This document shows, piece after piece, positions 25,978-30,550 of a stretch of 64,000 nucleotides of DNA (position 1 is the stretch's first letter; the number at the start of each line of letters is the position of its first letter). The DNA comes from Planctomycetota bacterium. GTDB taxonomy: Bacteria > Planctomycetota > Phycisphaerae > UBA1845 > UTPLA1. The position numbers were made by a program, and so were the translations under genes. A model generated the notes under the pieces. That model ran no database searches. It was not told where the DNA came from and worked only from the letters and a program-made list of their open reading frames with translations. Location: assembly GCA_003576905.1 (NCBI GenBank), contig QEVG01000006.1, positions 62,001 to 126,000 on the forward strand, written 5' to 3'.

Positions 25978-27672
25978 GTGCCGCATCGATCGCTGCTGGA
26001 TTCCATTTTTGCCCGCATTGGAAAGCTCCACGCGGGAAGCGTCGCGCGCCGGTTCTTCAAGGCGGTAGGCCGGGCGCGGGCGGTCCAGGAGGAGCTGCGC
26101 GCGGCGCTTGTCGCGCGGGCGGCCGAAACAGCGTTTGGAAGGGACCGGCACTTCGCCCGAATCCGCAGCTACGCCGACTTCCACGCGAATATTCCCGTGC
26201 TCAATTACATGGATTTCGCGCCCTATATTGACCGGGTGCGCCGCGGGGAGACGACGGCATTGATTCCCGCCGGCGAGCGCGTGCTGATGTTCGCACTGAC
26301 CAGCGGCACAACCGCGCAACCCAAGTACATCCCCATCACCCAGGGCGTCCTTGCAGAATGCCGGCGCGGATGGAACATCTGGGGGCTGAAGGCGATTCTA
26401 GACCATCCGCCCTCACTTCTGCGGCACATTCTTCAGGTCACCAGTTCGATGCACGACCATACCGCGCCGTCGGGTGTTCCGTGCGGCGCGATTACCGGGC
26501 TGCTCGCGGCGACCCAGAAGAAGCTGGTCCGCCGCTATTACACGTCGCCCGCGGCCGTGGCGGGGATTGAAGATCCGACGGCGAAGTACTACACGATCAT
26601 GCGGCTCGCGGTCGCGCGGGACGTGTCGTGGGCCGTGACCGCAAGCCCGGCAACGCTGCTGCTCCTGGCAAAGACGGGGGACGAACACAAGCGCCAGTTG
26701 ATCCGCGACATACACGATGGCACCCTTCGAGAGGATATCGAAGTCCCGCGGGAAATCCGCGAATCGCTGCGTCCGCGGCTTGCGGCCGATGCGGCGGCGG
26801 CGCGGCGGCTGGATGCGATCGCGTCGCGCAGCGGCGTCCTTTACCCGAAGGACTACTGGCGGCTCGATTTCCTCGCCCATTGGACCGGCGGAACGATGGG
26901 GCTGTATCGCTCACAGTTTCCGCGCTATTACGGGAGTCCACCGGTGCGGGACATCGGGCTCATCGCCAGCGAGGGGCGCATGTCGATCCCCGTCGCCGAC
27001 GAAACGGCGTCGGGCATCCTCGCCGTCACTTCCCACTTTTTTGAGTTCATTCCCGAGTCGGCCTACGGCGGTCGGCAGCCCGCAGTTCTCCGTATGCACG
27101 AACTCCGCGAGGGCGAGACCTATTTCGTGCTGCTTACCAACGCGAGTGGGCTGTATCGATATGACATCGGTGACCGCGTGCGGGTCACTGGGTGGGTCGG
27201 CGAAGCGCCCCTGATTGAGTTCCTGTCGCGCGATGCCCACACGTCTTCGATGACGGGCGAAAAGCTGACGGAAGATCAGGTCGTCGGGGCTATGAAGGAC
27301 GTTTTTGGGGAGGTGGACCCCATCGCAGAGTTTGTGCTCGCACCGCGTTTCGGCGAACTGCCGTGGTACCGGCTCTACCTGGAGACCGCGGACGCAACGC
27401 GGCGGCCGGGCCTCGCGGAAAAGTTCGATCTTGCGTTGTGTCGCGTGAATCCCGAGTACGATTCGAAGCGAAAGTCGCTTCGACTTGGGCCGGTGGAGGT
27501 GGTCCCGCTTCGGGATGGAACCCTTGCCGAGCGCGATCGACGCCTGCGCGTGCAGCGGTCGCGGACCTCCGAACAATTCAAGCATCAATACCTGCTGGCA
27601 TCGCCGGGCGCCGATCGTGATCTTGAATCGCGCGCGCTTCATGGAAAGAAAGATGAGCCGGTGAACGGCTGA
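25978..27672 (+). CDS. GH3-like acyl-adenylate/amide synthetase
   Basis: GTG at 25978 follows GGAGG. The 564-residue protein is a GH3 auxin-responsive-promoter family member: ATP motif ALTSGTTAQPKYIPIT, later HWTGGTMGLYRSQFPRYYG, LTNASGLYRYDIGDRVRVTG and DAHTSSMTGEKLTEDQV. Plant GH3 enzymes adenylate carboxylic acids and couple them to amino acids; bacterial members are mostly uncharacterised. Its partner appears to be the membrane hydrolase just upstream, so the pair may make and break acyl amides or esters; that is inference. Confidence 0.88.
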   Translation: MPHRSLLDSIFARIGKLHAGSVARRFFKAVGRARAVQEELRAALVARAAETAFGRDRHFARIRSYADFHANIPVLNYMDFAPYIDRVRRGETTALIPAGERVLMFALTSGTTAQPKYIPITQGVLAECRRGWNIWGLKAILDHPPSLLRHILQVTSSMHDHTAPSGVPCGAITGLLAATQKKLVRRYYTSPAAVAGIEDPTAKYYTIMRLAVARDVSWAVTASPATLLLLAKTGDEHKRQLIRDIHDGTLREDIEVPREIRESLRPRLAADAAAARRLDAIASRSGVLYPKDYWRLDFLAHWTGGTMGLYRSQFPRYYGSPPVRDIGLIASEGRMSIPVADETASGILAVTSHFFEFIPESAYGGRQPAVLRMHELREGETYFVLLTNASGLYRYDIGDRVRVTGWVGEAPLIEFLSRDAHTSSMTGEKLTEDQVVGAMKDVFGEVDPIAEFVLAPRFGELPWYRLYLETADATRRPGLAEKFDLALCRVNPEYDSKRKSLRLGPVEVVPLRDGTLAERDRRLRVQRSRTSEQFKHQYLLASPGADRDLESRALHGKKDEPVNG

Positions 27673-27684
27673 AGGGCCGGCTCA
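27654..27684. terminator. bidirectional terminator between GH3-like and rpiB-deoC genes
   Basis: TGAGCCGG (27654-27661) and CCGGCTCA (27677-27684) form a perfect eight-base-pair stem that spans both stop codons. On the plus strand it is followed by GTACTTTTCC and on the minus strand by TCTTTCTTTCC, so it can end both convergent transcripts. Confidence 0.7.
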
Positions 27685-29172
27685 GTACTTTTCCCTGGAG
27701 GACGGCGCGCCTGCGGTGGGATTGCCCTCGGCGGGCTGTCCCCCTTTGGCCTCCTTGAGGATCTGAACACCCGCGCTGGCGCCGATGCGCGTGGCCCCCG
27801 CTTCGACCATCTTCTTGAAGTCGTCATAGCTGCGAATGCCACCGGCGGCCTTTACTCCCATTCGCGTGCCCGCGACCGCCTCGCTCATTAGGGCCACGTC
27901 GTGGGAGGTCGCGCCGGTCGAGGCGAAGCCGGTGCTGGTTTTGACGAAATCCGCCCGGGCCCGCTTGGCGAGGTGACACGCCCGGACTTTTTCGTCGTCG
28001 CTCAAGAGCGCGCACTCAATAATCACCTTGCAGATGGCGCGGCCGTCGTAACAGGCGTCGACCACGGCCTTGATATCGCGGTAGACCAAGTCATCATCGC
28101 CGCTCTTCAGGGCGCCGATGTTTATCACCATGTCGATCTCGCGCGCCCCGTCGCGGATTGCCTTGCGCGTCTCGAAAGCCTTGACTTCCGCTACGTGCGT
28201 CCCGAGCGGAAAGCCCACGACCGTGCACACCGCCACGCTCGATCCCTTGAGAACATCCGCCGCCGGCTTGACCCAATTCGGGTTGATGCACACGGACGCA
28301 AATCCAAACTCCAGCGCTTCGCGACACAGCTGCTCGATCTGCTGCCGCGTCGCTTCGGGCTTCAGAAGCGTATGGTCGATGTACTTTGCCACGTCCCTGG
28401 GAATCGGTCCGCCGCCCGGCCCCATGCCGATGCGATCGGCGCCCATGCCGATCAATCCCCGAACCGTGTCCGGTCCCTTCTCGGCGCATCGGCCGTGGCA
28501 ATGTTCCCCGCAGCAGGAACACGAACTTCGCGCGGGCCAGCCGTCCCGGCCAAGCAGTTGTGCGATGCGATCCGCAATCCGCTCGAGGTCGGCGCTGGAA
28601 AGCTCCTTGAGATCAGGAATCCGGCGAAGTACATCGGGGGTCATGGTGTGAGGTTCCTCGGGGCGTGCTTGCGGCGGCGGCGTCATGCCGGGGATCGCGC
28701 CCGTACCGATGATACCGCGCTCGACCTCCTCAATCATGGCCACGCGGCGAACGTGGCGATCCACGGTGCAGTCTACGCTCAAAAAGGTCTCGACGATCTG
28801 CTCGGCCAGGCTGGGTCCGATTAAACCGGCCCCGAGCGTCAGAATGTTGGCATCGTTGTGTTCCCGGCTGTTTCGAGCCGATGAAACGTCGTAGCACAGC
28901 GCCGCCCGGACGCCCGGAAACTTGTTTGCGACCATCGAAGAACCGATGCCCGCCCCATCGATGATGATGCCCCGGGGGCACTTGCGCTCCGAAACGAGCC
29001 GGGCGACGGACGCGGCGATTCGAGGATAGTCGGCCGGGTTCTTGTCTTGCGTGCCGCAGTCCTCGACGGACCAGCCCTGGCCGACGAGGCGCTTCTTCAG
29101 ATGCTCTTTGAGGTCGAAGCCTCCGTGATCCGATCCGATCGCGATGCGCCTGTCTGTCACCTTCGAACTCAT
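27682..29172 (-). CDS. RpiB-DeoC fusion: sugar-phosphate isomerase plus deoxyribose-phosphate aldolase
   Basis: A single 496-residue frame with two enzymes. Residues 1-150 are RpiB/LacAB-like: [45 protein letters not shown]. The usual catalytic Cys before GxGIG is Asp72. Residues 260-475 are a complete Deo[12 protein letters not shown], Schiff-base Lys411 in FVKTSTGF, and Lys441 in GVKAAGGIR. The 110-residue bridge has a Pro-rich part, an amphipathic helix ([19 protein letters not shown], 191-209) and a Cys/His cluster (C218, C220, C221, H224, C225, H226, C229) that could bind metal. DeoC splits deoxyribose 5-phosphate into acetaldehyde and glyceraldehyde 3-phosphate. RpiB and DeoC are the signature enzymes of sugar-phosphate-utilising microcompartments, but no shell gene is in the window. 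GGAGG lies 11 bases before the ATG. Confidence 0.92.
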
Positions 29173-29365: not shown

Positions 29366-30550
29366 ATGTCGGGGCCGCACGGTGAGCATGCTCAGCGCCA
29401 GGTCGTGTGCCTGGTGACTGACGAAACGGCGACCGATCGAATTCCCTCGGCCCTGCGCTACCTTCAGATAGGACTCATTGACGAAAACATCGAGGTTCTG
29501 CTGGTGGCCCCGCGCGACGAACGCAGCGATTCAGTAGCAACCGGGCCGACCACCCTGATCACCTATCGGCGCCCGGCGTGGCCCCTGGAAACCTGGTCGC
29601 GTCATCGAATTACTGAGATAGTTGTCGAGAAGGCTCAGTCGCTCAAGCCACCCACGCCGTTGCTGGTGCATTCGCTCAGTTCGAGTTGCGCCCCGCTGGC
29701 GGCGGGAATTGCCGCCGCCCTCGAAGGGCAACTCATCATGACCGTGTGGTCCCCTTCCGATGCGAGCCTCCCGCAATTGCAGCAGTCAGTTGATCGCGCC
29801 GCGCTCCTGATCGCCCCTTCGGCGGCCGTGGCGCGCGGCATTCACGGCCGGCTGCCCGTGCAGCGTCCCGTGGAAGTCGTACCGCTGGGCGTTCCGGTCG
29901 CGTCGGGCGCGGCCGCCTTTCGCAGCGACGATCGCTCGCCGACGCTCCTGTTCGCAGGCACGATCAACGACGACGAAGGGATCGAATCCATGCTTCGAGC
30001 TGCGCGGATCGTCATGCAGAAGCACCCCAACCTGCTCGTATTTCTGGTAGGCAAGGGGCCGGGCGAGATCGCCGTGAGGCACCTCGCGACGAGCCTCGGG
30101 ATAGAGGACCAGGTCATTTTTACGGGCCGCCTGGAGTACCTTCGCCGCGCCCTTGAAGCCGCCGACATTTTCTGCCTTCCGAGTGCGGCAGAGCCGTTTC
30201 GGGAGGAGATTCTCCATGCCATGGCATGCGGGCTTGCCATCACCGCCGTTGAGGCAAGCCCGTACGACGGCCTTGAACACGGTCGCACTGCACTGCTTTA
30301 TCGCGAAGGGGCCGACGACGCCTTGGCAGACCACCTGCTTACCCTGCTGGACGGCCACGAACAGGGCCGCCAGCTCGCCGCCGGCGCCCGGGCTCACGCG
30401 ATTTCACAGAACTCAGTCGCCAGAATGGTCGCGGGCCACACGCGAATCTACCGGCAGCTTGATCGCCGCGAACGAACGTTCTCGATCGCCGCGGGCGGCG
30501 GCGGCGCCGAACCCAGCCGCGTTGACGGAACAGCTCCGCCGCCTTATTGA
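29366..30550 (+). CDS. GT4-like glycosyltransferase
   Basis: TAGGAG precedes the ATG at 29366. The 394-residue protein has a GT-B fold: LIAPSAAVARGI and VEVVPLGVPV at the domain junction, PTLLFAGTINDDEGIESML, FLVGKGPGE, and the nucleotide-sugar site FCLPSAAEPFREEILHAMACGLA with the EX7E pattern. It probably transfers a sugar from a nucleotide donor to a surface glycan or glycolipid. The C-terminal 20 residues are Gly/Ala/Pro-rich. Its end overlaps the convergent STN gene by seven bases. No other glycan genes are adjacent. Confidence 0.85.
   Translation: MSGPHGEHAQRQVVCLVTDETATDRIPSALRYLQIGLIDENIEVLLVAPRDERSDSVATGPTTLITYRRPAWPLETWSRHRITEIVVEKAQSLKPPTPLLVHSLSSSCAPLAAGIAAALEGQLIMTVWSPSDASLPQLQQSVDRAALLIAPSAAVARGIHGRLPVQRPVEVVPLGVPVASGAAAFRSDDRSPTLLFAGTINDDEGIESMLRAARIVMQKHPNLLVFLVGKGPGEIAVRHLATSLGIEDQVIFTGRLEYLRRALEAADIFCLPSAAEPFREEILHAMACGLAITAVEASPYDGLEHGRTALLYREGADDALADHLLTLLDGHEQGRQLAAGARAHAISQNSVARMVAGHTRIYRQLDRRERTFSIAAGGGGAEPSRVDGTAPPPY

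Follow-up and report, generated by a model that had tools for sequence, protein, structure and literature searches.

Sugar-phosphate-utilising (SPU) bacterial microcompartments are recognised by a DeoC-type aldolase (pfam01791) and an RpiB-type isomerase (pfam02502) encoded within a locus of shell genes (BMC-H, BMC-P) that also holds an acylating aldehyde dehydrogenase (AldDH). A fusion of aldolase and isomerase was already reported in 2014 for the SPU loci of Marinimicrobia, the only SPU loci described there as lacking PduL (PMC4207490). Nucleoside breakdown has been suggested as the SPU function, and that of the Haliangium ochraceum (HO)-type shells has been called enigmatic; the HO-type combines a BMC-P triplet and BMC-Tdp with a DeoC encoded elsewhere in the genome, in some cases with an N-terminal extension resembling an encapsulation peptide, which hints at an enzyme encoded away from its shell (PMC8217296). 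Here we describe an RpiB–DeoC fusion gene in a 64,000-nucleotide stretch of a Planctomycetota genome (the window; GenBank assembly GCA_003576905.1, contig QEVG01000006.1, positions 62,001 to 126,000; GTDB order UBA1845). Judging from sequence, the fusion very probably works inside a protein shell encoded elsewhere in the genome. Our best explanation, to which we assign a probability of roughly 0.85, is that it is the signature core enzyme of an SPU-type metabolosome, a compartment of a known kind, whose operon has been split, and that a helix within the protein targets it to the shell.

The gene starts with ATG and, as the original prediction had it, joins the two enzymes in one frame across a bridge of ~110 residues (LacAB_rpiB, PF02502, residues 10-147, E 1.6e-49; DeoC, residues 261-473, E 4.3e-25). 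The protein scores 142.8 bits with TIGR01120 (rpiB; cut-off 138.65) and 282 bits with TIGR00126 (deoC; cut-off 117.3). The DeoC barrel aligns in full with the solved aldolase 8qps (E 1e-83) and also matches 5dbu. K411, K441 and D347 are invariant in an alignment (A1) of the window fusion with 21 of the 29 other fusion loci retrieved in the order, and we take them, by analogy with the E. coli enzyme DERA, to be the catalytic lysine pair and aspartate. By family score and these residues the DeoC half has the features of a deoxyribose-phosphate aldolase; it differs from the solved enzymes in its N-terminal extension, which carries a targeting-like helix and a Cys motif. A search of the whole genome with the fusion protein returned the fusion as the sole DeoC match, and a second, stand-alone RpiB lies on another contig (C43). 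The nearest named full-length relative in a scan of bacterial species, from which our figures cover the best 80 loci listed and are no census, is from a Planctomycetota metagenome-assembled genome (59%).

Shell genes and the split operon

Searches of the genome with PF00936 and PF03319 both match contig C22 only. Its locus, with all frames open and on one strand, encodes BMC-Tdp, BMC-H, BMC-P, an acylating AldDH (NF011927), BMC-Ts, BMC-P and BMC-P, that is, six shell genes and one dehydrogenase; the BMC-Tdp is CcmP-like (NF053796, 341.8 bits; cut-off 340). Shell genes, whose absence the original prediction had named as an outcome that would speak against a compartment, are present here and also in relatives. 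The same prediction placed the fusion without a microcompartment nearby, which is correct for the genes adjoining it, none of which is a shell gene, and incorrect for the genome. The frames scanned around the C22 shell locus include no recognised aldolase, isomerase or PduL; the signature enzymes and the shell are on different contigs here, whereas other genomes of the order have them in one locus.

These relatives connect the two loci. In three genomes of the same family (G104, G105, G111) the fusion lies directly ahead of BMC-Tdp, in the order fusion–Tdp–H–P–AldDH, and in a fourth (G107) a DeoC at a contig end lies directly ahead of BMC-Tdp. In nine genomes of the family, the present one included, the fusion lies away from the shell locus, at a distance of 22 kb (G102), 36 kb (G098), 0.73 Mb (G109), ~1.0 Mb (G112) or 1.26 Mb (G108), or on another contig and away from contig ends (G000, G103, G106, G113). 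Seven of the nine retain all seven C22-type genes; the last BMC-P in G106 and the last two in G103 were undetected in the stretch examined. In a tree built from 34 fusion proteins, a branch with support 100/99 sets the nine split genomes apart from the rest, which indicates one change of state. On the same tree the G104 fusion (L037) groups with other families, apart from its own, and this suggests a transfer or a misplaced contig. A search of eight split and two unsplit relatives found a divergent glycosyltransferase-family gene, probably not part of the microcompartment system, next to the fusion in five of the former and both of the latter (G105, G111). Since the fusion kept this upstream neighbour, the break lies between the fusion and BMC-Tdp.

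Separate loci, and a C22 locus without a recognised signature enzyme, would also be expected if the fusion had left the compartment when the operon split and become a cytosolic bifunctional enzyme, with its helix a leftover and the C22 shell housing the AldDH only or some other enzyme. We consider this unlikely, because enzyme and shell are both retained in 9/9 split genomes and the helix can still be made out in these genomes.

Elsewhere in the phylum, 13 genomes (L235-L247; 12 in one family, f45) carry an RpiB with Asp in place of the catalytic Cys (D-type, see below) together with DeoC and with no shell gene in the 3 kb examined; among the matches listed, PF03319 occurs on other contigs of these genomes or, for G284, on the enzymes' own contig at a distance of 5.4 Mb. 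In this phylum, enzyme and shell may have become separated more than once.

Across the order, the fusion is present in 34 of 114 genomes (33 clearly; in G008 the gene is fragmented and partly masked). All 34 have PF00936, and the fusion was matched in none of the 60 genomes that lack PF00936. A further 20 genomes have PF00936 and no fusion match, and we inspected contigs of three of these. In G007 the contig with the same shell set ends ~150 bases past the last BMC-Tdp frame, and a 3.2-kb contig of G029 carries part of the set; in both, the missing fusion may be an assembly gap. G066 has a DeoC without the extension. In G008 the RpiB frame at positions 1-4000 of contig C54 (L198) begins as D-type and goes on like another RpiB, with pieces of DeoC in other frames; on contig C156 (L197) a further DeoC piece adjoins BMC-Tdp. 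This is either a broken copy or a chimaeric assembly.

The association extends to loci of several other phyla. Among the best 80 loci, 44 have RpiB and DeoC together, as 12 fusions and 32 separate pairs. All 12 fusions are followed by shell genes and AldDH in the order fusion, Tdp, H, P, AldDH, and 18 of the 32 separate pairs have shell genes in the stretch examined. The 14 of the 44 without shell genes in that stretch (30 have them) come from genomes with PF00936 elsewhere. Including two lone extended DeoCs (L095, L122) and leaving out L097, L116 and L145, PF00936 was found elsewhere in 16/16 genomes with stranded enzymes that were searched whole.

A chance fusion, or a relic unconnected to any compartment, would account for neighbouring genes that include no shell gene. 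We find this highly improbable and dropped it: a shell locus with open frames exists in the genome, the fusion recurs in other phyla and in 34 genomes of the order, which all have shell genes, it heads the shell operon in unsplit relatives, and sites in both halves are invariant. The original suggestion of a relic of such a locus is not supported, given the conserved sites and the persistence of enzyme and shell in the split clade. Its alternative, a compartment core enzyme, is strongly supported by the shell locus of the same genome, the 34/34 co-occurrence, the operon-heading relatives and the AldDH-like helix described below.

The bridge helix and the Cys/His cluster

AlphaFold2 predicts two confident domains in the fusion, separated by a low-confidence bridge with a single helix at residues 193-208, close to the helix originally placed at 191-209. 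A deeper alignment covering residues 180-496 gave mean pLDDT values of 81 at 190-199, 61 at 200-209 and 62 at 220-229. Ranked by moment, the 18-residue windows starting at 194 and 195 are 4th and 6th of 479, and that starting at 191 is 36th. An amphipathic helix of ~15-20 residues next to a flexible linker is one mark of an encapsulation peptide, and the helix at 193-208 lies between low-confidence stretches. The Pro-rich linker of the original prediction is present, yet it is unconserved among relatives (A1) and we rejected it as a conserved element; the helix is conserved and the Cys motif partly so.

A second mark is likeness to other cargo of the same shell. A profile of ten AldDH peptides of relatives, run as a plain scan in place of HMMER models, ranked the bridge helix second, after the genome's own AldDH peptide, of 127,887 21-mers from 102 kb of six-frame open reading frames. 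In the reverse direction a bridge-helix profile placed the AldDH peptide second, and within the fusions the best 21-mer for the AldDH profile was the bridge helix in 22/22.

Unfused SPU-type DeoCs of other phyla, judged by eye, have a helix-like stretch, often with Cys residues, ahead of the barrel, and we therefore read the bridge as best explained by an N-terminal targeting extension of the aldolase. In four shell-less relatives (G099, G100, G101, G110) DeoC has no extension.

The bridge also contains the predicted seven Cys/His residues (five Cys, two His) at 218-229; in 20,000 shuffled fusion proteins, seven Cys/His in twelve residues were reached by 2, and five Cys in twelve by 48. At least four Cys precede the barrel in 21/28 fusions of the order, 3/11 fusions of other phyla, 21/31 separate DeoCs beside RpiB and 3/29 lone DeoCs, in counts that leave out 11 rows without the anchor motif, of which L019 and L021 share the Cys motif of the window. 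C225 is found in 46/49 and C229 in 44/49 rows of a second alignment (A2; the window and 48 of 50 stretches, L038 and L098 left out), a set whose rows from other phyla were mostly picked for Cys-rich extensions, so that its Cys counts are biased outside the order. From these alignments the motif appears to recur across phyla and to be widespread yet dispensable; that it binds a metal or an iron–sulfur cluster, and with it the original option of a metal-controlled bifunctional enzyme, would be a guess. In six loci (L018, L031, L035, L038, L039, L041) the variable linker contains a second Cys/Gly-rich stretch that precedes the helix.

An altered RpiB active site

The RpiB half matches solved RpiBs (1nn4, 3he8) over the whole domain, with the ring-opening His and phosphate-binding Arg positions kept, and differs from them at the catalytic Cys, which is replaced by Asp72, as the original prediction stated and the alignment to solved RpiBs (E. 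coli 1nn4 included) bears out. Position 72 is Asp in all 30 fusions of the order and in all 44 RpiBs beside or fused to DeoC among the best 80 loci (74/74), and Cys in 21/21 separate RpiBs of the order (20 from the order list and the present genome's own on C43, which has the ordinary Cys and Thr). The division continues at position 74 (Ala or Val in RpiBs beside or fused to DeoC versus Ser or Thr in separate RpiBs) and position 78 (Ser versus Met, Ala or Val). H105, R139 and R143 are kept in 95/95 rows, D15 in 94 (one gap) and H140 in 93. The Cys of RpiB abstracts the C2 proton, the Thr relays the proton between O2 and O1, and His102/His99 opens the ring (PMC4783025, PMC3755991). With D72 and A74 where the Cys and the Thr/Ser two residues on are usual, and H105 at the ring-opening position, the isomerisation pair is altered and the ring-opening histidine retained.

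An exact DNA pattern for the tag D-x-A-G-I-G-S was run against 392 genomes of the phylum, 124 of which have PF03319; it matched 36 genomes, including 33 of the 124. A check of 30 of the 37 matches placed 27 in an RpiB, each from a PF03319-positive genome, and 3 outside RpiB. A reversed control pattern matched five genomes, so a few chance matches are to be expected. We read the D-type RpiB, from its sequence, as a compartment-specific subfamily. The Asp/Ala(Val) signature is apparently new: in the literature searched, including passages of PMC4207490, PMC8217296, PMC12339742, PMC11346464, PMC3212906, PMC4783025 and PMC3755991, we found neither this signature nor a Cys motif described for SPU aldolases.

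What this half does within the compartment is a separate matter. We see an even chance that it works as a conventional isomerase, acting on ribose-5-phosphate or a different sugar phosphate with Asp72 in the role of base: the TIGR01120 score exceeds its cut-off, the ring-opening and phosphate-binding residues are kept, and M. tuberculosis RpiB works with a base other than Cys at another position, Glu75 (PMC4783025, PMC3755991). Such a role sits less well with the joint change of both proton-transfer residues, without exception in 74 rows, and with a separate RpiB in the genome that has the usual pair. A more speculative possibility, which we hold rather doubtful, is that the RpiB of SPU compartments might be no ribose-5-phosphate isomerase and might instead serve as a dedicated ring opener (anomerase), handing the open-chain aldehyde to the fused aldolase inside the shell. 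2-Deoxyribose-5-phosphate lacks O2 and cannot serve as a normal aldose-ketose substrate. If true, this would explain the ‘isomerase’ common to SPU subtypes though the proposed pathway needs none.

Model, locus features and implications

In the split-operon explanation, an ancestral operon would have read fusion, BMC-Tdp, BMC-H, BMC-P, acylating AldDH, BMC-Ts, BMC-P, BMC-P, and would have been broken once, at the junction of fusion and BMC-Tdp, in an ancestor shared by the nine family genomes, whose two parts now lie 22 kb to 1.26 Mb apart or on different contigs. The bridge helix would have begun as the N-terminal targeting peptide of the aldolase and become internal with the addition of RpiB ahead of it, and would still carry the fusion into the shell. 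There, the aldolase products would be acetaldehyde and glyceraldehyde-3-phosphate, of which the co-packaged AldDH would convert the first to acetyl-CoA.

Several points weigh against this explanation. Encapsulation, activity and pathway of the fusion are what we infer from the genes. Encapsulation peptides are described as terminal (PMC8217296), and this helix is internal, between two enzymes. HMMER models of the two 21-residue peptides each found only their own family, neither recovering the other within the top six hits, so that the reciprocal second rank was unseen with HMMER, and the AldDH profile was weaker in two fusions (L026 and L040, in which 15 and 8 background 21-mers score higher). 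The Fisher tests for fusion with PF00936 in the order (p 2.7e-15) and for the tag with PF03319 in the phylum (p 3.6e-15) ignore kinship. The genome, 97% complete, has no match to PduL (PF06130) or to the DeoB and pyrimidine-nucleoside-phosphorylase models. Nucleoside breakdown is therefore unsupported here by the latter two genes; another kinase or mutase might stand in.

Compared with described SPU systems, the locus shares with Marinimicrobia the fusion and the lack of a PduL match (PMC4207490); it differs in that the signature enzyme of the nine-genome clade is encoded apart from the shell locus, and in the residue signature and Cys motif. With the HO-type it shares the BMC-P triplet, BMC-Tdp and a distant DeoC, and it differs in the fusion to RpiB and in having unsplit relatives that reveal its origin, the C22 shells being compared by gene type.

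The features of the locus are collected in the table. The two genes flanking the fusion have no obvious relation to it. GH3 proteins are known mainly for plant hormone conjugation, and among ten relatives searched a GH3-family gene stands beside the fusion in G112 only.

Table. Features of the fusion gene and its neighbours (window positions; residues numbered on the fusion protein)
Feature	Position	Strand	Basis or remark
RpiB–DeoC fusion gene, 496 aa; both neighbours on the opposite strand	27682..29172	-	Open reading frame and family matches
RpiB-type isomerase domain, residues 10-147	28732..29145	-	PF02502, E 1.6e-49
D72 codon, replacing the catalytic Cys (A74 and S78 nearby, same signature)	28957..28959	-	Alignment to solved RpiBs
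Variable Pro-rich linker, residues 152-190	28603..28719	-	Unconserved in A1; low pLDDT
Encapsulation-peptide-like helix, residues 191-211	28540..28602	-	Helix prediction 193-208; AldDH-peptide profile
Cys/His cluster, residues 218-229 (C218-x2-C221-x3-C225-x3-C229 plus C220, H224, H226)	28486..28521	-	Cys counts
DeoC aldolase domain, residues 261-473	27754..28392	-	TIGR00126, 282 bits
Divergent glycosyltransferase-family gene	29366..30550	+	Kept beside the fusion in split and unsplit relatives
GH3-family gene, three-domain protein, adjoining the fusion	25978-27672	+	Family match

Compartments are typed by the genes beside the shell, and in this genome the shell locus and the signature enzyme are each unreadable alone; relatives reveal them as halves of one operon. 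The D-x-A-G-I-G-S tag of RpiB, together with an extended DeoC, can locate missing halves of compartments, and the split SPU arrangement offers a lead on the HO-type shells. The altered active site may account for the retention of RpiB in such compartments, and its Asp/Ala pair opens the part that ‘RpiB’ plays in SPU compartments to direct test.
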